Shown here one piece after another: positions 50,603 to 62,174 of a stretch of DNA of 64,000 nt (its first letter is position 1; every line of letters starts with the position of its first letter). A program made the position numbers and the translations under genes. Origin of the DNA: Verrucomicrobiaceae bacterium. GTDB lineage: Bacteria > Verrucomicrobiota > Verrucomicrobiia > Verrucomicrobiales > Verrucomicrobiaceae. Below the pieces are notes generated by a model, which saw only the letters and a list, made by a program, of their open reading frames with translations, searched no databases and was not told the origin of the DNA. The DNA is taken from contig JAEUHK010000019.1 of the NCBI GenBank assembly GCA_016795465.1, positions 1-64,000 on the forward strand. Reading direction: 5' to 3'.

Positions 50603-53600
50603 ATGAACCGGCCTTTTCGTTTTGTTTTCGCTTTGCTGTCCCTGTCTGCCTCCGCCTGGGCGGTGGACGGCACGTTTGTCGGCCAGGGCAACGGCACCGC
50701 CACCACGGCGAACTACAGCGACACCACGAAATGGTCCGGCGGCACGGTGGCGAGTGGCACGGGCGCGACGGCGACGATCAGTCTAAACGGCACCACAGGC
50801 GCAGGTGCCACGGCGATCACGATGACGGCACCGGTGACGCTGGGGAACCTCGTGCTCAGCGGTAGTAGCAGCGGGCAGAACTTCAGCCTCACGGGCAATG
50901 GCACGGCCGCGAACTCGACGATCACCTGGGCCACCTCCAGCGGCACGCCGACGATCAACCTCGCGACGTGGTTCAGCAAAAGCTATGGCTTTGGCGGCGG
51001 TGGCCTGACGTTTGCGGGCACGCAGGGACTGCGAGTCATTACGGGTTCGAACATTTTCTCGCCCACCAGCGGCGGGCTGTCGTGGACGGGCTTTTCCGGC
51101 ACGCTGACGGTGACGACGAGCGGTGGTGAGAATGGCGTGATCGATCCGGCCACGGGCGGCACTTTGCCTGCCACGCGCCTCTCGCTGGTGCAAGGAACGG
51201 GGACGAGCACGATCACGCTGGGCATGTTTGGTGGGCGCAATCAGACCATCGGCGGCTTTGACGGCACGGCGCAGACGTATGTGCGCAACAACAGCACCTC
51301 CGTCTTCAGCACGCTGACGCTGGGCACGAACAACGAGAGCGGGAACTTCCAGGGCTTCTTTGGCAAGAACCCGGGCGCGGCCAGCACGGACTTCCGCTCA
51401 AACATCGCCATCACGAAGAACGGCAGCGGCACGCAGACCTTCAGCGGCACGAGTTACGGTGCCGGAACGACGACGATCAACGCGGGCACCTTTCTCATGA
51501 ATGGCTCGCACATCGCCACGATCACGACGACGGGCAATCTGGCGGCCACCACGGGCACGGCGGGCTCTTACGCGGTGAAGAACACCGCCACGCTGGGCGG
51601 CACGGGCACGATCAAGCCCTTCGACACGGCGGGCGGCGGTGTGATGATCACCATCGAGTCCGGCGGCAAGCTGGCTCCTGGTGATCCCGCGACGAGCAGC
51701 GGCGTGGGCACGCTGACGATTGATCAAACGGTCTCCAATCGCACCAATCTCTTCTTTGCCACCGGTGGCACGGCGAGCTTTGACCTGAGCACGACTGGCA
51801 ATGACAAGGTGGCCTTCGTCGGACACGCCACGGTCGGTGAGGCGATCTTCAACAGCACGGTGCTGAACTTTACCGATCTCTCCGCCGGGTTGCTGGCCAG
51901 CGGGCAGTATGTGCTCTTTCAGGGCGATGCGAACACGAACTACAGCGGCCTCACCACCGATGGCAGCGGCTTCATCACCGCCGGGCTCAGCATCGGCAGC
52001 GGACTCTCGTCTTACACGAGCACGAGCCTGCAGGTGGTGGGCAATAGCATCGCGCTGAACCTCACGAACCCGAACGCACCGGTGCCGGTGGCGCTGAGCT
52101 TCAATGTCAAAGGCAGCGCCAACACCGGCATGTCATCGGGCGATCTCGCCGGAGCCAGTGGTGCTCGTTTTGCGAACTGGAACAACCTCAACGTCACGAG
52201 CGGCAGCGGCTCGATGACGAATCTGGTCGATAGCAATGGTGCGCAGGTGACCGGCGTGTCGGTGAGCCTCGGCGGTGGCAATGGCGGCACGGCTTTCAAT
52301 CGCGGCATCGCGAGCCCGTCGAACGACACGCGCTTGTTCGACACGGTGTATGACAAGTTCGACGGCACGGCGACGACCATCACCGTCACGGGCATCCCGT
52401 ATGGTGCCTACGATGTGTATTTCTACATGGCGGATGATGGCGCGGCACGCGGCGGCAGCTTCACGGTGGGCAGCACGACGTATTACCTGCGCGGTGGTGC
52501 AGGCACGCCGACGAGCAGCGGCACCGGCTATGTGCAGAGCACGGACACCACCTTCAACAGCGGCGCGGACATGCAGGCGAACTATGTGAAGTTCACCGGC
52601 CTGACCGGCACGCTCACCGCCACCTTCACCGCGGTGAACCAAGGCGACAGCGTGCAGCGTCTGAAGTTCCCCGGCTTCCAAATCGTGGGCACGGCAGCGC
52701 CTGCGAACACCGCACCGGTAACACCGAGTGGTGTCACCATCACGGCGAACAGCACCACGAGCTACACCATCGCGTGGACTGCGGTGAATGGGGCCACGAG
52801 CTACCAAATCTTCCGCAGCACCACCTCGGGCAGTTTCAATTTCGGCAGCCCGCTCGCCACCGTGACTGCGCCCGCGCTGAGCTACACGGACACGACCGCT
52901 GTCGCTGGCACGACTTACTTCTATGTCGTGCGTGCCGTGAATGGCGTTGGCAGCAGCGCCAGCTCGTCGGAAGTCACGAATCCGCCGCCGGATCTGTCGT
53001 CCGTTGTTGCCTCATCACCCGTCATCTGGCCCGGCGGCAGCAGCACGCTGAGCTGGGCTCTTCCGAATGCGGATTCGCTCACCATCGACAGCGGCAGCGG
53101 TCCGCAGAGCTACGCCACCACGGGCTCGCTCGTCGTCACGCCAAGTGTCACGACGAACTACGTCTTCAGCGCCACGAACGGTCAGGGCACCACCAACAAA
53201 ACGGTGACCATCACCCTCACGCCAAAGCCGAACCACAAAGACGATCTCTGGCAGTGGTCCGTGCCGATCACCGGCCTCATCTCCTCCGAGACGAACGGGA
53301 ATCCGCGTGCTTTCCTCTACATCCCGCCGGGCGTCACCACCGTGCGAGGCGTCATTCTCGGCCAGGACAATCTTTTGGAAAAAGCCCTGCTGGAGCATCC
53401 CGCCACACGCCAGGGCATGGCCGATGCCGGCATGGGCGCGATCTTCATCTCGCCGAACCTCGATGCGCAGTTCAATTTCACCGCGCGGCCCAACTCCCCG
53501 GTTTATTTCCAGCAGATGATGGACGCCCTCGCCGCAGACTCCGGCTACAGCGAGCTGAGCAAGACGCCCGTCGTGTGGATCGGCCACTCCGCCATGGCCA

Positions 53601-55351
53601 GCGCTCCGTATCACTTCGCCGCGTGGGACAAACAATACGCCACCGCCAACGGCACCCAGCGCCGCTGCGCCGCCGCCATCTCCATCAAAGGCCAGATCCC
53701 ACAGTATCGCGATGCGAACAGCCCCACCTTTGCCGACAGCGACCTCGCCGGCACGCCGCTCATGTTCATCAATGGTGAATACGAAGACGCCATGGGCCGC
53801 GCCACGAACTCGCTCACCTTCAAAAACAACACCGCCGGAGCCATCATGTCGATGTTTGCCGACAATGGCCGCGGCCACTTCGACTACAGCGACCGCGTCT
53901 GCGAATACCTCGGCATGTATCTGCGCAAAATTGGCCAGTATCGCCTGCCCGCCAGCGCTGCGGCCGATGGCACCGCCGTGCTCCAGACCATTGACCCGAG
54001 CACGCAGGGCTGGCTCGCCGATCGCTGGCGCAAAGGGCTCAGCCCCACCGCCAGTCCCGCGCCGGTCGCCAGCTACAGTGGCAATGCCAGCGAGGCCTTT
54101 TGGTTCTTCGATCAAGAGCACGCCGAGACCACGCACAACAACTACCTGCCCGTCAAAACGACGTATCAACTCGTCGGCTACACGCAGAACGGTTCGCTCG
54201 TCGCCATGGATAACTCGCACGCCGCCGTGAACCTCTCGTGGTCGCCCGATGCCAGCGGAGACGGACGCACCTTCCGGCTCGGCAGCACCTTCCTCGACAT
54301 CGTGCCACCGCAGGGCGTGAACGCCTCCGGCCTCCCCGCCGGCTCCGCCATCGGCCACGCCAGCTCCGGCAGCCCCGTCTTGATCCACGGCATCACCGGC
54401 CCCTTTGAGCAGCTCTCGCCAGATACCTTCCGCATCGCCTTCAACCGCATCGGCACCGAAAATCTCGCCGCAGGCCGGTCGAAGAGCATCTGGTTCCAGG
54501 CCACGCATCCTGGCGATGCCACCTACGTCAGCGCCGTGCAGCAGGCCGTGCTCGGCTTCACCTTGCCCCTCACCAGCGGCACCGCACAGACCATCACCTT
54601 CACGCAACCCGCGGACCAGTTGAATGGCGTCGCCTCGCTCAATCTCAGCGCCAGCACCACCGGCACCGCCACCTATGCCGGAGCCACCGTGGACTTCTAC
54701 GTCCGCGAAGGTCCCGCGAAGGTCAGCGGCAATACGTTGACCTTCACCACGCTGCCACCGCGCACGAAATTCCCTGTCAAAGTCACCGTCGTCGCCACTC
54801 AATACGGCCGCACCATCGCCCCACTGCTGCAAACGGCCACGCCCGTCACACGCACCTTCTGGATTCACAAGAATGCCCTCGAAAAATGGCGCTACGAGAC
54901 CATGGGCAGCGTCACGATCGGCTCCAACGGCGAGCCGCAATTCACCATCAACGCAACCACCGCCTCCAACACCGGCGACAACGATGGCGATGGCGTCAGC
55001 AACCTCGTCGAGTTCGCCTTCGGCATGAATCCCGCCGCCAACAGCACCGGCACCTTTGCCATCAGCGGCAGTGTGCTCACCCAGACCGGCATGCCCGCCG
55101 CCAACGTCGAAACACTGCCGGGCATCGTCAACTACACCGCCCGCTTCGTCCGCCGCAAAACCCACGCCAGCGACGGCCTCATCTACACCCCGCAATTCAG
55201 CGCCGACCTCACCACCTGGCAAAACAGCACCGCCACACCCACCGTCGTCGCCAGCGATGCCACCCACGACGTCGTCGAAGTCACCTATCCCTTCTTCATC
55301 GGCGGCAAAAAAGCCCGCTTCTTCCGCATCGCCGTCAGCACGTCTCCGTGA
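50603..55351 (+). CDS. Large secreted protein: autotransporter-type repeats, FN3, alpha/beta-hydrolase
   Basis: 1,582 aa with a signal peptide (about 1-20, ending SASAWA-V). Residues to ~490 are Gly/Thr/Ser-rich beta-helix with autotransporter-associated strands (TLGGTGTIKP; SGGKLAPGDPATSSGVGTL). Then a unique beta domain (about 490-690), an FN3-like domain (about 700-790: SYTIAWTAVNGATSYQIFRS) and an Ig-like linker. An alpha/beta-hydrolase domain (about 890-1150) has nucleophile Ser996 in WIGHSAMAS and a candidate catalytic His1092 in GRGHFDYSD; the acid is probably in FINGEYEDAMGR. The C-terminus carries a calcium-type motif (DNDGDGVSNLVEFAFG). It lacks an outer-membrane barrel. A polysaccharide esterase role would fit the divergent GH79-like gene, but this is inference. 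Confidence 0.85.
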   Translation: MNRPFRFVFALLSLSASAWAVDGTFVGQGNGTATTANYSDTTKWSGGTVASGTGATATISLNGTTGAGATAITMTAPVTLGNLVLSGSSSGQNFSLTGNGTAANSTITWATSSGTPTINLATWFSKSYGFGGGGLTFAGTQGLRVITGSNIFSPTSGGLSWTGFSGTLTVTTSGGENGVIDPATGGTLPATRLSLVQGTGTSTITLGMFGGRNQTIGGFDGTAQTYVRNNSTSVFSTLTLGTNNESGNFQGFFGKNPGAASTDFRSNIAITKNGSGTQTFSGTSYGAGTTTINAGTFLMNGSHIATITTTGNLAATTGTAGSYAVKNTATLGGTGTIKPFDTAGGGVMITIESGGKLAPGDPATSSGVGTLTIDQTVSNRTNLFFATGGTASFDLSTTGNDKVAFVGHATVGEAIFNSTVLNFTDLSAGLLASGQYVLFQGDANTNYSGLTTDGSGFITAGLSIGSGLSSYTSTSLQVVGNSIALNLTNPNAPVPVALSFNVKGSANTGMSSGDLAGASGARFANWNNLNVTSGSGSMTNLVDSNGAQVTGVSVSLGGGNGGTAFNRGIASPSNDTRLFDTVYDKFDGTATTITVTGIPYGAYDVYFYMADDGAARGGSFTVGSTTYYLRGGAGTPTSSGTGYVQSTDTTFNSGADMQANYVKFTGLTGTLTATFTAVNQGDSVQRLKFPGFQIVGTAAPANTAPVTPSGVTITANSTTSYTIAWTAVNGATSYQIFRSTTSGSFNFGSPLATVTAPALSYTDTTAVAGTTYFYVVRAVNGVGSSASSSEVTNPPPDLSSVVASSPVIWPGGSSTLSWALPNADSLTIDSGSGPQSYATTGSLVVTPSVTTNYVFSATNGQGTTNKTVTITLTPKPNHKDDLWQWSVPITGLISSETNGNPRAFLYIPPGVTTVRGVILGQDNLLEKALLEHPATRQGMADAGMGAIFISPNLDAQFNFTARPNSPVYFQQMMDALAADSGYSELSKTPVVWIGHSAMASAPYHFAAWDKQYATANGTQRRCAAAISIKGQIPQYRDANSPTFADSDLAGTPLMFINGEYEDAMGRATNSLTFKNNTAGAIMSMFADNGRGHFDYSDRVCEYLGMYLRKIGQYRLPASAAADGTAVLQTIDPSTQGWLADRWRKGLSPTASPAPVASYSGNASEAFWFFDQEHAETTHNNYLPVKTTYQLVGYTQNGSLVAMDNSHAAVNLSWSPDASGDGRTFRLGSTFLDIVPPQGVNASGLPAGSAIGHASSGSPVLIHGITGPFEQLSPDTFRIAFNRIGTENLAAGRSKSIWFQATHPGDATYVSAVQQAVLGFTLPLTSGTAQTITFTQPADQLNGVASLNLSASTTGTATYAGATVDFYVREGPAKVSGNTLTFTTLPPRTKFPVKVTVVATQYGRTIAPLLQTATPVTRTFWIHKNALEKWRYETMGSVTIGSNGEPQFTINATTASNTGDNDGDGVSNLVEFAFGMNPAANSTGTFAISGSVLTQTGMPAANVETLPGIVNYTARFVRRKTHASDGLIYTPQFSADLTTWQNSTATPTVVASDATHDVVEVTYPFFIGGKKARFFRIAVSTSP

Positions 55352-55354
55352 CCG

Positions 55355-55388
55355 GAAATGACGAAATCCGAATCCCGAATGCCGAAAC
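55355..55388. repeat. ATGACGAAAT/CCGAAT degenerate repeat (reverse of TTCGTCATTC)
   Basis: A string of imperfect GAAATGACGAA / CCGAAT units directly after the stop codon of the large secreted-protein gene and before the PEP-CTERM start. It is the reverse orientation of the TTCGTCATTC family at 55462, 57395 and 59672. Confidence 0.6.
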
Positions 55389-55398
55389 TTCACACGCC

Positions 55399-56058
55399 AT
55401 GAATCGCAAGCCTTCTCTCACTTTAACCCAACCTATGGCCTCCTGGCTGCTGACCGTGACGTTCGTCATTCTGTCATTCGCCATTCGTCCTTCCGCGAAC
55501 GCGGCCGTCATCTACAGCGGCGTCCAAAACATCGCCATCCCGACCACCTTCGACGGCGTGTATCTCGACATCGATACCGTCACCACCAGCACCTCCGTCA
55601 TCACCGGCTGGGACATCAATCCCTTCTTCGGCGGCTTCGCCCTCGGCAACAGTGCCGCTTTTCAACCCGTGCGCATCGGCACCGGCAACTCCGACACCAT
55701 CCTCAATCTCGCCTACGGCACCCTCGTGGACAGCCTGCTCAACTACGCCACAGGCGAAGCCGGGAGCAGCGACCACATCGGCGGCGGCGCGAATCAATTC
55801 ACCGACGGTGCCTCAGGTTATCTCGGCTTCAAATTCACCACCAACAGCAACGCCGGCCCCTTCTACGGCTGGATGCACCTCACCCTCACCGCCAACACCA
55901 GCGGCGCCACCATCCATGAATGGGCCTACGACAACACCGGCTCCGGCATCTACATCGGCTCCCTCACCGCCGTCCCCGAGCCCTCGCGAGCCATGCTGCT
56001 TCTCATTGGCCTCACTTCGGCCTTCTTTCGTCGTCAACGCCACCGGACTGCCGCATGA
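55399..56058 (+). CDS. PEP-CTERM sorting domain protein
   Basis: 219 aa. An N-terminal signal peptide ends near residue 36 (RPSANA-AV). The body is beta-rich (IPTTFDGVYLDIDTVTTS; GYLGFKFTTNSNAGPFYGWM), a pattern common in secreted PEP-CTERM proteins. The tail is a classic PEP-CTERM signal: VPEPS at about 192-196, a hydrophobic stretch (AMLLLIGLTSAFF) and a basic end (RRQRHR). Such proteins are processed by an exosortase and linked to exopolysaccharide; no exosortase gene is in this window. ATG 55399. It overlaps the next small gene by 4 nt. Part of the signal peptide is encoded by a dispersed repeat. Confidence 0.85.
   Translation: MNRKPSLTLTQPMASWLLTVTFVILSFAIRPSANAAVIYSGVQNIAIPTTFDGVYLDIDTVTTSTSVITGWDINPFFGGFALGNSAAFQPVRIGTGNSDTILNLAYGTLVDSLLNYATGEAGSSDHIGGGANQFTDGASGYLGFKFTTNSNAGPFYGWMHLTLTANTSGATIHEWAYDNTGSGIYIGSLTAVPEPSRAMLLLIGLTSAFFRRQRHRTAA
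55462..55492. repeat. TTCGTCATTC repeat inside the PEP-CTERM signal-peptide region
   Basis: The repeat units TTCGTCATTCTGTCATTCGC and CATTCGTCCTT lie in frame within the PEP-CTERM gene and encode residues 22-32 (FVILSFAIRPS), the hydrophobic core of its signal peptide. The same family occupies intergenic spacers at 57395-57428 and 59672-59703. Confidence 0.65.
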
Positions 56059-56171
56059 CTCGTCACACGCTGATCAGCCTCCGCGAGCTCATCCTCCGCC
56101 TCGCGGGCATTTTGGGCATGGTGGCCGTTTTTGTCCTCCTCTCTTGGGGTATCTGCCGCCTCGTCGGGTGA
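56055..56171 (+). CDS. Very small single-span membrane protein
   Basis: 38 aa: a basic N-terminus (MTRHTLISLRELILR) followed by one hydrophobic span (LAGILGMVAVFVLLSWGICRLV). The start codon overlaps the PEP-CTERM stop (ATGA at 56055-56058), so translation is probably coupled. The overlap, the inside-positive arrangement and the membrane-like span argue for a real gene despite its size. I do not recognise a family; it might assist the PEP-CTERM protein it is coupled to, which is speculation. Confidence 0.5.
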   Translation: MTRHTLISLRELILRLAGILGMVAVFVLLSWGICRLVG

Positions 56172-56318
56172 GCCTTTTCCTCCGTCGGTGCTCATCCCCG
56201 ATGAATCTGGCATCCGTTTGATCGAGTGATCACCTCTGGTTTGCCAGCAAGCACCGGCGGAGGGAGCCGCCACCTTCCGCGGCTTGAGATTTGTCTTTGG
56301 GTGCCTATGCTCGCAGGC

Positions 56319-56489
56319 ATGAAAACGACACTTCTCTTCCTTGTCGGTGCCCTTCTCGTCCTGACATCCTGCCGTAATGGCCGCGGAGGTCCGGTGGAAC
56401 GGGCAGGCCGCAGCGTGGACAATGCGGTGGATTGGGCGGGCTATGGCGTCCGCCGTGCAGGTGAGGGTATTCAGCGAGCGGCGCGGTGA
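56319..56489 (+). CDS. Small entericidin-like lipoprotein
   Basis: 56 aa. Signal sequence with a lipobox (LLVLTSC, Cys18) predicts a short lipid-anchored peptide. The mature part (NGRGGPVERAGRSVDNAVDW, then RRAGEGIQRAAR) resembles entericidin-like small lipoproteins, which commonly have an amphipathic helix with a GRxVDxA-type stretch. ATG 56319 is chosen because it gives a standard signal length; ATG 56307 is 4 codons upstream. It lies 15 nt before miaA and may share its transcript. Confidence 0.65.
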   Translation: MKTTLLFLVGALLVLTSCRNGRGGPVERAGRSVDNAVDWAGYGVRRAGEGIQRAAR

Positions 56490-56504
56490 TTTGGAACACC
56501 GCGC

Positions 56505-57407
56505 ATGCTGCCTGAATCCACGATCTTCATCGCCGGACCCACCGCGTCTGGTAAATCGGCCCTCGCGTTGGAGCTGGCCTCGCGGCTGGATGGGGAAATC
56601 GTGAACGCGGATGCCTTTCAGCTCTATGCGGGGCTCGATGTGATCACGGCGAAGCCCTCCGCGGCCGATTTGGCCCGTGTGCCGCATCATCTTTACGGTG
56701 TGCTGCCGCTCACGGAGGCCTGCGATGCGCAGCGCTATCATGATCTCGCCAGGCCGGTGATTGAAGACATCGCCTCGCGTGGCAAAACGCCGCTCGTGGT
56801 TGGCGGGTCCGGTTTGTATCTCAAAGCCCTCACCCACGGCCTGGCGCCGCTTCCGCAAGGTGACGCGGCGATGCGTGAAAAGCTCCGCGAGAGGTCGCTG
56901 GAGGACAAAGTAGCCGAATTGCTCGCTCTCGATCCCGCCGCGGCCACGACGGTCAACCTGCGCAATCCGCGTTACGTCGAGCGAGCCCTCGAAATCTGTC
57001 TCCTCACTGGCAAACCGCAGTCCGAGCTGCGCCAGAGCTTCCAAAACGCCCGGCCGAAGGTGCGCGGCATTGTTTTGAGCTGGGAACGCGAGGCCCTCTG
57101 CCACCGCATCGAGGCACGCACGCGGCAAATGCTCGCCAGCGGAGCCCTCGAAGAGGTCGCGGCCCTTGGCGAAGTCTCCCTCACGGCCTGCAAAGCCATC
57201 GGCATCCGCGAGATCCGCGATCACCTCACCGGCAAACTCCCCCTGGAGCAAACCATCGAGGCCATCGCCATTGCCACCCGGCAGTATGCGAAGCGTCAGG
57301 CCACCTGGTTCCGGCGCGAGACGTGCTACCAAACGATTTGCCTCGATTCCTCATCCACCGCACAGTCCGCCGTCGAATCCGCCCTGCGCTTGATTTCGTC
57401 ATTCTGA
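56505..57407 (+). CDS. miaA: tRNA dimethylallyltransferase
   Basis: 300 aa enzyme transferring dimethylallyl from DMAPP to A37 of tRNAs reading UNN codons, the first step of i6A/ms2i6A modification. P-loop GPTASGKSAL at residues 11-20, the substrate Asp/Gln region NADAFQLYAGLDVITAKPS (family NADSxQxYxxxxIgTAKP), VGGSGLYLKAL near 100, and NPRYVERALEI. The C-terminal RQYAKRQATWFR motif is also present. Length is typical. The last codons and stop (ISSF-TGA) fall inside a TTCGTCATTC-type dispersed repeat. aroB starts 22 nt downstream. Confidence 0.97.
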   Translation: MLPESTIFIAGPTASGKSALALELASRLDGEIVNADAFQLYAGLDVITAKPSAADLARVPHHLYGVLPLTEACDAQRYHDLARPVIEDIASRGKTPLVVGGSGLYLKALTHGLAPLPQGDAAMREKLRERSLEDKVAELLALDPAAATTVNLRNPRYVERALEICLLTGKPQSELRQSFQNARPKVRGIVLSWEREALCHRIEARTRQMLASGALEEVAALGEVSLTACKAIGIREIRDHLTGKLPLEQTIEAIAIATRQYAKRQATWFRRETCYQTICLDSSSTAQSAVESALRLISSF

Positions 57408-57428
57408 ATTCGTCCTTCGTCATTTCCC
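57395..57428. repeat. TTCGTCATTC degenerate repeat across the miaA stop
   Basis: Units TTCGTCATTC, TTCGTCC and TTCGTCATTT run from the end of miaA, including its TGA stop, to the aroB start codon. So the entire intergenic gap plus the last codons of miaA are repeat-derived. Confidence 0.65.
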
Positions 57429-57429
57429 C

Positions 57430-58533
57430 ATGCCCCCGCCCCCCGCCATCCGTCCCGTTTTCGTCAATCTCGGCCCACGCAGCTACGTCGTGCAGGTCGG
57501 CAAGGGGCTGCTCGCCACCGCGGGCGAGGAAGTGAATAAAAAACTCGCTGACCGCACCCGCTGCGCCGTCATCACCGATTCGAATGTCGGCCCGCTTTAC
57601 GCGGAGAAGGTCCTGCAAAGCCTGCGGGATGCCGGGAAGGAGCCCCACCTCATCACCGTGCCCGCTGGCGAGGCCTCGAAGTCCCTGCTCAGCAGCGAGA
57701 CCGTGCTCAGCGAGATGGCCAGGGCCGGCCTGGATCGCAAAAGCTTCGTCGTCGCCCTCGGCGGCGGGGTCATCGGCGACCTCGGCGGCTTCTGCGCGGC
57801 CATTTACCAGCGAGGCATTCCGTATGTGCAAATCCCCACCACCGTGCTTTCACAGGTGGACAGCTCCGTCGGCGGCAAAACCGGCGTGAACCTGCCCGAC
57901 GCAAAAAACATGGTCGGAGCCTTCCACCAGCCTGTGTTGGTCATCGCGGACATCGACACGCTCTCCTCGCTGCCGAAACGCGAGTGGAATGAAGGCTTTG
58001 CCGAGATCATCAAGCATGCCGCGATCAAAGATTCGAGCCTCTACGCCCAGATCGACGCCATCGCCGAGGGCAAAGGCGACCTCGTCGCGGTCATTCGTCG
58101 CAACATTTCGATCAAAGCCGCCATCGTCGAGGCCGATGAGTTCGAGACCATCGGCACGCGTGCCCTTCTGAACTTCGGCCACACCCTCGGCCATGCTATC
58201 GAAGCCGCCGCTGGCTATGGCAAACTCCTCCACGGCGAGGCCATCTCTCTCGGCCTGCGGGCCGCTGCGTGGCTCTCCACGCAGATGAGCGGCCTCAATT
58301 CGCAAGAGCACGACCGCATCGTGAATCTGCTGAAACGCTTCGAACTGCCCGTCACCCTCGGCGAGGAGTTCTCGACCGATGAAATCATGCGCATCGCCCG
58401 CATGGACAAGAAGTTCGAGAAAGGCCGCATCCGCTTTGTCCTGCTCAAAAAGGCCGGTGATGCCTATGTGAGCAAAGACGTCCTCGAAGGCCACCTCATC
58501 AATGCGATCGACGAGATTCGGAAGCCGGTGTGA
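57430..58533 (+). CDS. aroB: 3-dehydroquinate synthase
   Basis: 367 aa NAD- and metal-dependent enzyme converting DAHP to 3-dehydroquinate, second step of the shikimate pathway. The NAD/substrate block is intact (LGGGVIGDLGGFCAAIYQRG near 120; PTTVLSQVDSSVGGKTGVNL near 145), as are EWNEGFAEIIKHAAIKD, the metal ligand region NFGHTLGHAIEAAAGYGKLLHGEA and the final DKK motif (RMDKKFEKGRI). Full length. The ATG at 57430 begins a short Pro-rich N-terminus. It follows miaA closely and precedes a sugar-isomerase-like gene. Confidence 0.97.
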   Translation: MPPPPAIRPVFVNLGPRSYVVQVGKGLLATAGEEVNKKLADRTRCAVITDSNVGPLYAEKVLQSLRDAGKEPHLITVPAGEASKSLLSSETVLSEMARAGLDRKSFVVALGGGVIGDLGGFCAAIYQRGIPYVQIPTTVLSQVDSSVGGKTGVNLPDAKNMVGAFHQPVLVIADIDTLSSLPKREWNEGFAEIIKHAAIKDSSLYAQIDAIAEGKGDLVAVIRRNISIKAAIVEADEFETIGTRALLNFGHTLGHAIEAAAGYGKLLHGEAISLGLRAAAWLSTQMSGLNSQEHDRIVNLLKRFELPVTLGEEFSTDEIMRIARMDKKFEKGRIRFVLLKKAGDAYVSKDVLEGHLINAIDEIRKPV

Positions 58534-58578
58534 TTTGATTCGTGACAAAGCGGCGTCGTGCCGCGTATTCCACGCACC

Positions 58579-59472
58579 ATGTCCAACCGCCGCCGCTTCC
58601 TCCGCTCTCTTTCCGCCACCACGCTTGCCGCTGCCACCGGCAGTCTTTTGCCCGCTCAAGAAGCCAAACCCGTCCGCAAGCTTCGCAAGGCCATCATGGG
58701 CGGCACGCTTGGTCTGAAGGGCACGCTCATCGAAAAGTATAGGGCGGCCAAGGAAGCCGGTTACGAAGGCGTGGAGCCTCAGGGTGGCCTGAACCAGCAG
58801 GAGGTCATCGACGCCCTCGGCCAGTCCGGCTTGCAAGCGGCCAGCGTTTGCTGCCACACGCACTGGAAACAGACGCTCACGCATCCCGATGAAAAGATCC
58901 GCGAGGAAGGCCTGCAGGGCGTTCTTCAAACCCTCCGCGATGCGAAGGCCTATGGCGCGGATTCCATTCTCGTCGTTCCAGGCACCGTTGGCGATGACGT
59001 GACCTATCAGCAGGCCTGGGACCGCTCCATCGCCCAGATCAAGAAGGCCGTGCCGCTCGCCAAAGAGCTCGGCGTGAAGATCTCCATCGAGAACGTCTGG
59101 AACAACTTCATCCTCAGCCCCATCGAAGCCGTGAAATTCCTCGACGAGATCGGCGATCCGATTGTCGGCTGGCATTTCGACATCGGCAACGTGCTGCGCT
59201 ACGGCTGGCCGGAGCATTGGATCCCCGTGCTCGGCAAGCGCATCAACCGCATCCACGTCAAAGAATACTCCACGAAGAAGATGAAGGACGAGGGCGTGTG
59301 GAAAGGCTTCGACTGCGATCTCACCGAAGGCACCAACAACTGGCCCGCGATTATGAAAGCCCTCGACAGCATCGGCTACACCGGCTGGGCCATCAGCGAG
59401 CAACGCGGCGGCATCAACCCCAACGGCCTCCGCATGCTCGTCGAGCGCATGGACAAGATTTTTGCGATGTGA
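58579..59472 (+). CDS. Tat-exported sugar phosphate isomerase/epimerase-like TIM barrel protein
   Basis: 297 aa. Twin-arginine signal (NRRRFLRSLSATTLAAATGS, then LLPAQEA) predicts folded export. The body is a xylose-isomerase-like TIM barrel (AP endonuclease family 2): EAGYEGVEPQGG, LGVKISIENVWNNF with a likely metal Glu, IVGWHFDIGNVLRYG and INRIHVKEYS with metal His residues, ending GWAISEQRGG. Such proteins act on sugars or inositol-like substrates and are abundant in Planctomycetes and Verrucomicrobia; substrate unknown. ATG 58579 places the Tat motif at the N-terminus (GTG 58558 would add 7 residues). A terminator follows. Confidence 0.88.
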   Translation: MSNRRRFLRSLSATTLAAATGSLLPAQEAKPVRKLRKAIMGGTLGLKGTLIEKYRAAKEAGYEGVEPQGGLNQQEVIDALGQSGLQAASVCCHTHWKQTLTHPDEKIREEGLQGVLQTLRDAKAYGADSILVVPGTVGDDVTYQQAWDRSIAQIKKAVPLAKELGVKISIENVWNNFILSPIEAVKFLDEIGDPIVGWHFDIGNVLRYGWPEHWIPVLGKRINRIHVKEYSTKKMKDEGVWKGFDCDLTEGTNNWPAIMKALDSIGYTGWAISEQRGGINPNGLRMLVERMDKIFAM

Positions 59473-59494
59473 GGTAATCCGGCCTCCTCCTTCG

Positions 59495-59530
59495 AAAAGC
59501 CTCCTAGCAGCCATGCCGGGAGGCTTTTTT
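59495..59530 (+). terminator. Rho-independent terminator after the isomerase-like gene
   Basis: A 10-bp stem (AAAAGCCTCC at 59495-59504, GGAGGCTTTT at 59519-59528) with a 14-nt loop and a T run, 22 nt past the stop codon. It would end transcripts of the miaA-aroB-isomerase group. Confidence 0.8.
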
Positions 59531-59671
59531 GTGCCTGCCACATGCCCCGAAGCCACCCCACGCCCACTTTCCCGCCGTCCCGGCACAGCAAGTGCTCATT
59601 ATGGCTTTGAAACGGCCCTTTCACCATCCATCTACTTGCCCTTCCGCCATCGCTCGCCCCTCGTCTTCCCC

Positions 59672-59703
59672 TTCGTCATTCTGATTTCGTCATTCGTCAT
59701 TCC
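59672..59703. repeat. TTCGTCATTC degenerate repeat before glgP
   Basis: Three imperfect units (TTCGTCATTCTGA, TTTCGTCATTC, GTCATTCC) end 2 nt before the glgP ATG, so the presumed ribosome-binding region is repeat-derived. No Shine-Dalgarno is visible in it. Confidence 0.65.
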
Positions 59704-59705
59704 AA

Positions 59706-62174
59706 ATGGAATCCCCGCTCAACTGCCCGCCGTCCGACTCCACCGAGTCGCTGAAAGTCTCGATCACCAACCACCTGCGCTTCACCCTCGGGGCCTATGT
59801 GCAGTCCGCCTCCGAGAATGACTGGTGGGTGGCCACCTGCCTGGCCGTGCGTGACCGTGTGATGGACATGTCCACGAAGTCCCGCTCGCTGCATCGTCAG
59901 GAAGGCGTTCGCCGAGTGCATTACCTCTCGCTGGAGTATCTCATGGGCCGCCTGTTGGAGAACAATCTCCGCAACTCCGGCCTCTACGAGCACACGAAGG
60001 AAGCCCTCGCAGCCTGCGGCAAAGATCTCGACTCCCTGCTTCAACGCGAGCCCGACATGGGCCTCGGCAATGGCGGCCTCGGCCGTCTCGCCGCGTGCTT
60101 CATGGATTCGCTCAGCACGCTGAACCTGCCCGCCATCGGCTACGGCATCCATTATGAGTTCGGCCTCTTCAAACAGGAGTTCGTGAATGGCAAGCAGGTC
60201 GAGCATCCCGATGCGTGGATGCGCGATGGCAGCCCATGGAAGATCGCCCGCCCGTCCTACCGGCAAAAGATTCATCTCTATGGCCGCAGCGTGCAGAAGT
60301 TCGACGACCTCGGCAATCCGCACTACGAATGGGTCGATACGAAGTGCCTTCTCGGCCTGCCGTGGGACATTCCGATCGTCGGTTATGAATCGCACACCGT
60401 GAACGTGCTGCGCCTCTGGCAGGCGCAGGCGGATGAGGACCTCAATCTGCAAATCTTCAACGAAGGCGGCTACATCGACGCCATCCGCGAGAAGGCGATG
60501 GCCGAGACCGTGTCGAAGGTGCTCTACCCGAACGACAGCACGGAGAGCGGCAAGGAATTGCGCCTCGTGCAGCAGTATTTCTTCGTCGCCTGCTCGCTCG
60601 CCGACATCATCCGCCGCTTCAAAAACGGCTACAACCTCCCCTGGAGCGAATTCCCCTCCAAGGCCGCCATCCAGCTCAACGACACGCATCCCGCCGTCGC
60701 CATCCCCGAGCTCATGCGCATCCTCGTAGATGAAGAGAAGCTCGATTGGGCGCAGGCCTGGAGCATTTGCCAGCAAACTTTTGGCTACACGAATCACACG
60801 CTGCTGCCCGAGGCACTCGAAACGTGGTCCACCGGCCTCTTTGAGCGCGTGCTGCCGCGCCACCTCCAGATCATCTATCAGATCAACCACCTCTTCCTCA
60901 CGAACGAAGTCGAGGCCAAATGGCCCGGCGACAACGAGAAGAAGCGCGTCCTTTCGCTCATCGAGGAACGCGGCGGCCACAAAGCCGTGCGCATGGCCCA
61001 CATGAGCGTGCTCGGCTCCCACGCCACGAACGGCGTCGCCGCGCTGCACACGCGTTTGCTTTGCGAGCGGCTCTTCCCCGAGTTCCACGAGCTGTATCCC
61101 GAGCGCTTCCTCAATCTCACCAATGGCGTCACCTTCCGCCGCTGGCTCGACGTGTGCAATCCGGAGCTCTCCGCGCTCATCACCGAGTCCATCGGCTCCG
61201 GCTGGCTCAAGGATGCGTCGAAACTCCGCGGCCTCGAAAAATTCGCCACAGACAGCTCCTTCCAGCAGCGCTTCCACGACATCAAACGCGGCCACAAAGT
61301 GCGCCTCGCCAAGATTATCCAGGATTCCTGCGGCGTGTGCGTGAGCCCCGATGCGCTCTTCGACGTGCAGATCAAGCGACTGCACGAGTACAAGCGCCAG
61401 CACCTCAACCTGCTGCACATCGTCAGCCTTTACCGCCAGCTCCTCGACAATCCGAACCTCGACATCGCCCCGCGTGTCTTCGTTTTCGGAGCCAAGGCCG
61501 CTCCCGGCTACTACCTCGCCAAAAACATCATCCACGCCATCAACGCCCTCGCCGCGAAGGTGAACCATGATCCGCGCATCGGCGGCAAGCTGAAGGTCGT
61601 CTTCATCCCGAACTACGGCGTCTCCATCGCCGAGCGCATCATTCCGGCGGCCGATCTGAGCGAGCAAATCTCCACCGCCGGCAAGGAAGCCTCCGGCACG
61701 GGCAACATGAAGCTCGCCCTCAACGGTGCCCTCACCATCGGCACGCTCGACGGCGCCAACGTCGAGATCCTTGAGGAAGTCGGCGACGACAACATCTTCA
61801 TCTTCGGCCTCACCGTCGAGGAAGTCACTGAACTCCGCGCCAAGGGCTACAACCCCATGGACTACTACTGGGCCAGCGAGGAACTGCGCCTCAGCCTCGA
61901 CTGGCTCACCAGCGATGCCTTCACCGGCAACGCCAACGAGTTCAAACCCCTCCGCGACAGCCTCCTCCACCACGGCGACCCCTTTCTCGTCATGGCCGAC
62001 TACGACAGCTACGCCGCCGCCCAGGCCAAAGTCGGCTGGGCCTACCAAAACGTCCCCGAGTGGACCCGCAAAGCCATCCTCAACACCGCGAGAGTCGGCA
62101 AATTCAGCAGCGACCGCACCATCCTCGAATACGCCGAGAAAGTGTGGAAGCTCCCGCAGGTCTCGGTGCCGTAA
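59706..62174 (+). CDS. glgP: Glycogen/starch/alpha-glucan phosphorylase
   Basis: 822 aa GT35 enzyme releasing glucose-1-phosphate from alpha-1,4-glucans in the cytoplasm. Family blocks: [17 protein letters not shown] near residue 80, [48 protein letters not shown], and the pyridoxal phosphate site [20 protein letters not shown] with the Schiff-base Lys669. Length agrees with the usual ~815 aa. The ATG at 59706 is at the end of a dispersed repeat. It appears monocistronic: a terminator lies upstream and a 120-nt spacer downstream. Confidence 0.97.

Follow-up and report, generated by a model that had tools for sequence, protein, structure and literature searches.

Repeat DNA can be translated in real proteins, as happens with the Rickettsia palindromic elements, which lie at varied places in them. 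The repeat described here, found in a 64,000-nt stretch of a Verrucomicrobiaceae genome (the window, that is, the whole stretch analysed), is likewise translated within real proteins, but the Rickettsia elements do not occupy signal peptides as a class. Their occurrence within ORFs is also named in a paper on GTAG- and CGTC-tagged REPs (PMC3733652), which describes hundreds of dispersed copies, mostly intergenic and often arranged as inverted dimers, with some copies in ORFs, a number of them N-terminal, and voices doubt that many of these N-terminal cases truly code. The tagged REPs resemble the present repeat in being dispersed, mostly intergenic, organised in inverted pairs and sometimes located in ORFs at N-termini; they differ in being single palindromes, whereas here the unit is non-palindromic, the frame is fixed by homologues and the site is the signal peptide. 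Within a signal peptide, the small mobile sequence RU-2 has been described in one predicted case, Yersinia pestis YPO1552, whose homologues have unrelated signal peptides (Delihas 2007, PMC2759123). RU-2 is a 168-bp MITE-like unit known from single cases, in contrast to the array of 7-nt units found here in many genes, with its de-charging and abutting palindrome. Signal peptides are gained and lost in Enterobacterales and change quickly between orthologues (PMC5952966); the change is similarly fast here, but that study concerns gain and loss, whereas in the present case the signal persists and a repeat family supplies new DNA for it. RU-2 and the N-terminal REPs being precedents, the principle of a repeat-coded signal peptide is already known. 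In the literature searched, neither this repeat nor recurrent repeat-coded signal peptides came up, and it likewise contained nothing on the features reported below: the number of genes involved, the bias towards sulfatases, the loss of charge and the junction palindrome.

The locus comprises the following features.

50603..55351, + strand: upstream gene, whose end also precedes the homologues at the relatives' loci.
55356..55386, - strand: inverted partner array, after the upstream gene's stop; the start codon of the next gene sits between both arms.
55399..56058, + strand: gene for a PEP-CTERM protein of 219 aa with a TIGR02595 domain; alternative start ATG 55435.
55462..55493, + strand: right-arm array, in frame as FVILSFAIRP(S), the hydrophobic core of the signal peptide (from the sequence, the repeat matches and the synonymous null).
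55493..55504, + strand: palindrome CCGCGAACGCGG, seen in the sequence directly 3' of the array and translated as S-A-N-A where cleavage is presumed.
55972..56040, + strand: PEP-CTERM sorting domain, residues 192-214 (TIGR02595 profile match).
57395..57425, + strand: intergenic copy just before ATG 57430 of the next-but-one gene (17-mer and array matches in the window).
59672..59702, + strand: further copy, not within any gene called in the survey.

The TIGR02595 profile scores 21.1 bits against a curated cut-off of 16, which makes this a PEP-CTERM protein; Pfam gave no match for the 219-aa protein at E 0.01. Read from ATG 55399, residues 22-32 (FVILSFAIRPS) are coded by 55462-55494, within which 55462-55493 is a 32-nt repeat stretch. 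The start is ambiguous (ATG 55399 or 55435), and the array falls within the signal peptide under both. Synonymous recoding of the peptide matched the repeat equally well in 1/4000 draws with genomic codons and in 0/4000 with N-terminal codons, so the repeat match is no by-product of the peptide. The predicted RNA fold of 55346-55505, which spans both arms, was equalled by 1/200 shuffles. As a separate observation, the window copy at 57395-57425 ends five bases ahead of ATG 57430, the start of a gene that resembles aroB by eye; such a position suggests that arrays may influence translation starts.

The dispersed repeat is an array of TTCGTCA-type 7-nt units with arms of some 31 nt, often present as inverted pairs; TTCGTCATTCGTCATTCTGCATTCGTCATTC is its 31-nt consensus, from 112 arms of the own genome. 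In this genome, the source of the window (G000; 6.76 Mb in 132 contigs, 95% complete with 7.5% contamination), the 17-mer TTCGTCATTCGTCATTC has 245 sites with at most 2 mismatches (127 + 118 by strand) and its reversed control has 1. Within the window, TTCGTCATTC has 15 matches at no more than 1 mismatch (100 shuffles: mean 3.9, maximum 10). The 17-mer was present in all 34 other searched genomes of the genus, with 1 to 427 sites each, and had 0 to 12 sites in each of 21 genomes from other genera of the order. A gene caller placed 97 of 113 arms between genes in 62 stretches of the own genome (60 surrounding listed repeat matches, one further locus and the window), and 31 of the 37 neighbouring arm pairs less than 200 nt apart were oriented head to head. 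A sample of 864 kb, made up of the window and 800 kb of long contigs, had 21 longer arrays, of which 19 were intergenic and the remaining two lay at sense 5' gene ends, in the window PEP-CTERM gene and in a sulfatase; five scrambled units used as a control gave 0 to 4 arrays each, and no gene 5' end had one. Read one way, a pure array is open in every frame (FVIRHSS); the opposite strand has a TGA in each unit, so that only one array orientation can survive within a gene. The consensus is not self-complementary and CGTC lies inside the units instead of tagging an end, which sets the family apart from REPs defined by stem-loop and tag; in the wide sense (many copies, mostly intergenic, often in inverted pairs) it is REP/BIME-like. 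A RAYT-driven REP family was rejected: loci were read for 8 of the 12 Y1_Tnp matches, and none has a repeat closer than about 1.5 kb. The repeat was not seen to be accompanied by any mobile enzyme, and Rfam returned no family at gathering score over window positions 55000-60000.

We then compared the window gene with its homologues. A protein search over 56 genomes, the own included, gave ten homologues with a full-length start to read, one being the own-genome paralogue L061; the partial match L040 and further copies lacking a fetched locus were left out. The upstream gene's end precedes all ten by inspection (a crude motif test matched 5/10). Nine are repeat-free (best 17-mer at 6-8 mismatches; reversed control 5-8), and the same nine bear clear but different, normal-looking signal peptides (e.g. 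MKPNRTLLATALLLFAFCLPARA in G021 and MKRLFLALILVLPGFSPAVNA in G023). They include G049 and G050, whose whole genomes are without any repeat match. This distribution indicates that the signal peptide predates the repeat, whose arrival rewrote its core; judged from these sequences, the window gene thus appears to carry a pre-existing signal peptide rewritten by the repeat, not a newly made one. The tenth homologue, G003, has TTCGTCATTCCTTATTC at the corresponding place, a 17-nt stretch with 2 mismatches to the repeat, so the rewriting event may predate this species; the protein tree could not place G003 and left undecided whether it shares one event with G000.

These results bear on the initial annotation, which had proposed that repeat DNA, otherwise intergenic, writes residues 22-32 and that its insertion could create an export signal. 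The coding claim is confirmed by the in-frame array, the 245 sites against 1 in the control and the synonymous null, and the use of repeat DNA as coding sequence for a signal-peptide core is supported. 'Otherwise intergenic' is nearly right: it describes 19 of the 21 arrays in the 864-kb sample and misses the two at sense 5' gene ends. The inverted partner at 55356-55386 goes unmentioned in that annotation. Conservation of the peptide in relatives lacking the repeat family, named there as evidence against the proposal, was not seen in the repeat-free homologues, G049 and G050 included. The creation of an export signal is what found no support. That insertion conferred such a signal on a previously unexported protein is highly improbable: the array does supply the hydrophobic core in the window gene, but nine of the ten homologues have a signal peptide without it, and repeat-free orthologues of two repeat-coded sulfatases, described below, bear one as well.

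The initial annotation had also suggested looking for similar strings in other signal peptides, and the outcome was strongly positive in sulfatases, in other proteins and in stretches from GTDB genomes. The own genome has 94 sulfatase-domain matches, 76 with their 5' region in the fetched sequence and 18 without. In 17 of the 76, the signal peptide contains the repeat with at most 3 mismatches (five at 1, eleven at 2, one at 3); of the other 59, 57 have 6-9 and the last two 4 and 5, and the reversed control gave none below 4. All 17 are read in the same frame and follow a common, somewhat variable layout, typically M[KR]..LL..SSFxIL[HV]SSF[SA]A..PN; by eye the build may be Sec-like, with basic start, hydrophobic core and small residues (e.g. 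MKHLLLALSSFLILHSSFSAQPN). The repeat-written peptides may act as ordinary Sec signals. The commonest coding form elsewhere is de-charged and in another frame, SSFxILHSSF and not FVIRHSS; the window array uses a frame other than that of the sulfatase copies and retains one Arg. Beyond sulfatases, the same layout was found in L124 (no known family), in L127 (a PF12893 match, with LPAC after the array) and in the histidine kinase L077, the start being unsure in the last two. An RND-pump-like start at L108 (FSSFFITRPIFAG) was excluded from the count because it resembles what we take to be the native starts of that family.

Prepilin-like genes were kept out of the repeat-coded count, as their start codons are unsure. 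Among them, in-frame arrays precede prepilin-like cleavage sites at L074 (two genes), L100 and L109, e.g. HSPSG-FTLVEIIIALTIV; N_methyl, T2SSK and GspI-type matches point to pseudopilins, and the repeat may thus write leader peptides as well. Some signal peptides (L313:1455-1540; L319, L320, L322, L234, L237) contain another dispersed sequence, about 70 nt long, inside the heptad array, translated for example as SSF-xxASLRSLLRSSTRFAVLAVSLxSAL-VSSFAAE. It has matches in 26 of 56 genomes, the own included; no such signal peptide was seen at the fetched copy L321.

An exact 35-nt layout-pattern scan of GTDB species genomes gave 33 stretches, 29 with a Met at most 20 codons before the array and most resembling sulfatase starts by eye; L260, L271 and L273 are unconvincing and the start of L248 is unclear. 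The matches are labelled Prosthecobacter, Verrucomicrobiaceae, Verrucomicrobiales and Akkermansia muciniphila MAGs, plus one Pirellulales and one Verrucomicrobiota; the host is accordingly described as Prosthecobacter-like. The same signal-peptide layout is thus found in other Verrucomicrobiaceae. The 35-nt matches of L273 (a Pirellulales MAG; contig labelled planctomycete) and L271 do not resemble signal peptides.

Hydrophobic signal peptides written in TTC, GTC, ATT and TCG codons might resemble the repeat by chance. We redrew the synonymous codons of 20 repeat-coded peptides 4000 times with genomic use and 4000 times with N-terminal use: for 18 peptides, at most 23/4000 draws matched the repeat equally well, and two were weak, C131:14538 (101 and 140 /4000) and C105:16989 (30 and 55 /4000). 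Although these two lend chance some room, the null excludes it for the other 18, and the gap in the sulfatase mismatch distribution with its reversed control stands against it too, as does the overuse of TCA, which makes up 5% of serine codons and yet occupies the second position in 30 of 35 SSF-type motifs. Chance coding is accordingly rejected for the set, and as a general explanation its probability is close to nil.

The coding copies carry a mark of selection on the peptide. In the signal-peptide frame, a charged residue or stop occurs in 1 of 16 sulfatase arrays vs 55 of 110 other arms (Fisher 0.0008), and the sixth codon encodes Arg in 1 of 16 vs 45 of 110; this count picked up 16 of the 17 sulfatase arrays, and a few of the 110 other arms are coding.

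We next considered how the arrays are distributed among the sulfatases. A quick tree was built from 72 of the 76 domains, two fragments of one gene and two low-scoring matches having been dropped. The 17 array-positives need 13 changes on it, where shuffled labels average 15.6 and are as low in 20/500; starred branches force at least 9 changes, and one starred clade of four is wholly positive. Thus, the array is gained and lost, yet partly inherited. At a distance of about 0.02 changes per column, one sulfatase (C89:1521) carries the array and its neighbour on the tree (C75:814) has an ordinary signal peptide; the regions upstream of the two cannot be aligned. The orthologues of C54:37820, 74-89% identical in congeners, have the array in G011 (1 mismatch) and G017 (2), look decayed or partial in G010 (4) and G007 (5), and are without it in G016 (4, at another place) and in G005, G014, G025 and G006 (6-8), as are those from other genera, G047 and G043 (8). 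For C21:189304, the 95%-identical G016 orthologue retains the array (3 mismatches), G031 has an interrupted form (4), G004 a possible remnant (5) and G047 none (8). Across 35 congeners, the repeat count correlates with the count of a signal-peptide-end pattern that shares only about five bases with the repeat pattern (Spearman 0.59; 0.56 without G000). The end pattern is impure, arrays with at most 3 mismatches being present at 16 of the 30 loci examined, which makes the correlation noisy. G013 has 288 repeat matches and zero matches to the end pattern, and hence the family can abound without recruitment.

A repeat-coded signal peptide that arose once, long ago, and spread by duplication of sulfatases or by transfer from gene to gene, with the intergenic copies as its relics, would account for the identical frame and layout in 17/17 sulfatases and for the partial clustering, including the clade of four that is all positive. 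The tree, with its 13 changes of which at least 9 are forced, rejects single inheritance through duplication while keeping some clustering, and the wider idea has further facts against it: 19 of 21 arrays in 864 kb are intergenic, G013 abounds in repeats and has no signal-peptide-end match, and the PEP-CTERM protein, the kinase and other carriers are not sulfatases. We judge it improbable. The uniform frame and layout could nonetheless reflect gene-to-gene exchange instead of separate insertions. Our favoured reading, which we hold to be likely, is that a mostly intergenic repeat repeatedly lands in frame over the signal peptides of exported proteins and replaces the existing core, the window gene being one case. 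Arrays would reach gene starts by insertion or by recombination between copies; an array would then replace the old hydrophobic core and supply a working one, after which selection would keep units in which CGT has become CTG or CTT and Arg is lost, so that SSFxILHSSF with small residues behind it results.

The junction at the array's 3' end has a structure of its own. A perfect 6-bp stem with a 3-nt loop abuts it in 14 of the 17 repeat-coded sulfatases, vs stems of at least 6 bp in 2 of 55 others, and synonymous choice alone would yield 0.45 stems in 17. The palindrome codes [SA]-A-x-P or similar, and the stems differ by gene yet pair (TTCGGC/GCCGAA, CGCGGC/GCCGCG, CTCGGC/GCCGAG, CGCTGC/GCAGCG, GGCCGC/GCGGCC). 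Most loops read GNA on one strand, a very stable type of DNA mini-hairpin. A 6-bp junction stem is present in 21 of the 33 GTDB copies, where the search pattern fixes most of the 5' arm and not the 3' arm. In the own genome, 17 of 112 arms are followed by a stem of at least 5 bp, and 13 of those are sulfatase copies. Two array-free sulfatases also have a junction palindrome, G000:C75:814-1773 (7 bp), the near-twin of the array-bearing C89, and G000:C52:32913-33872 (8 bp).

The element might then be kept mainly for a role in DNA or RNA, as a 5' message hairpin or a recombination site, with the peptide a tolerated by-product. We find this doubtful, though the excess of stems over synonymous expectation despite their differing sequences, their recurrence in the GTDB copies and the pairing of the arms that flank the window start codon all speak for it; the de-charging of the sulfatase copies indicates that the peptide is under selection too, and most arms outside the sulfatases are without a stem. 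A proposal that we put forward tentatively, as possible, is that the repeat constitutes an exchangeable signal-peptide cassette: shared arrays would let 5' ends, that is, the upstream region with the signal peptide, swap between exported enzymes, and the junction triloop palindrome would be kept by selection or by template switching on DNA or RNA.

Since almost any hydrophobic sequence is tolerated in signal peptides, it is plausible that non-coding repeats turn into protein there. For these bacteria the finding carries a warning, as repeat masking or start-site trimming may delete real N-termini. It also turns the genus into a replicated natural experiment, with many genes, repeat-bearing beside repeat-free orthologues and a measurable signature of selection, in which the replacement of signal peptides becomes directly testable.
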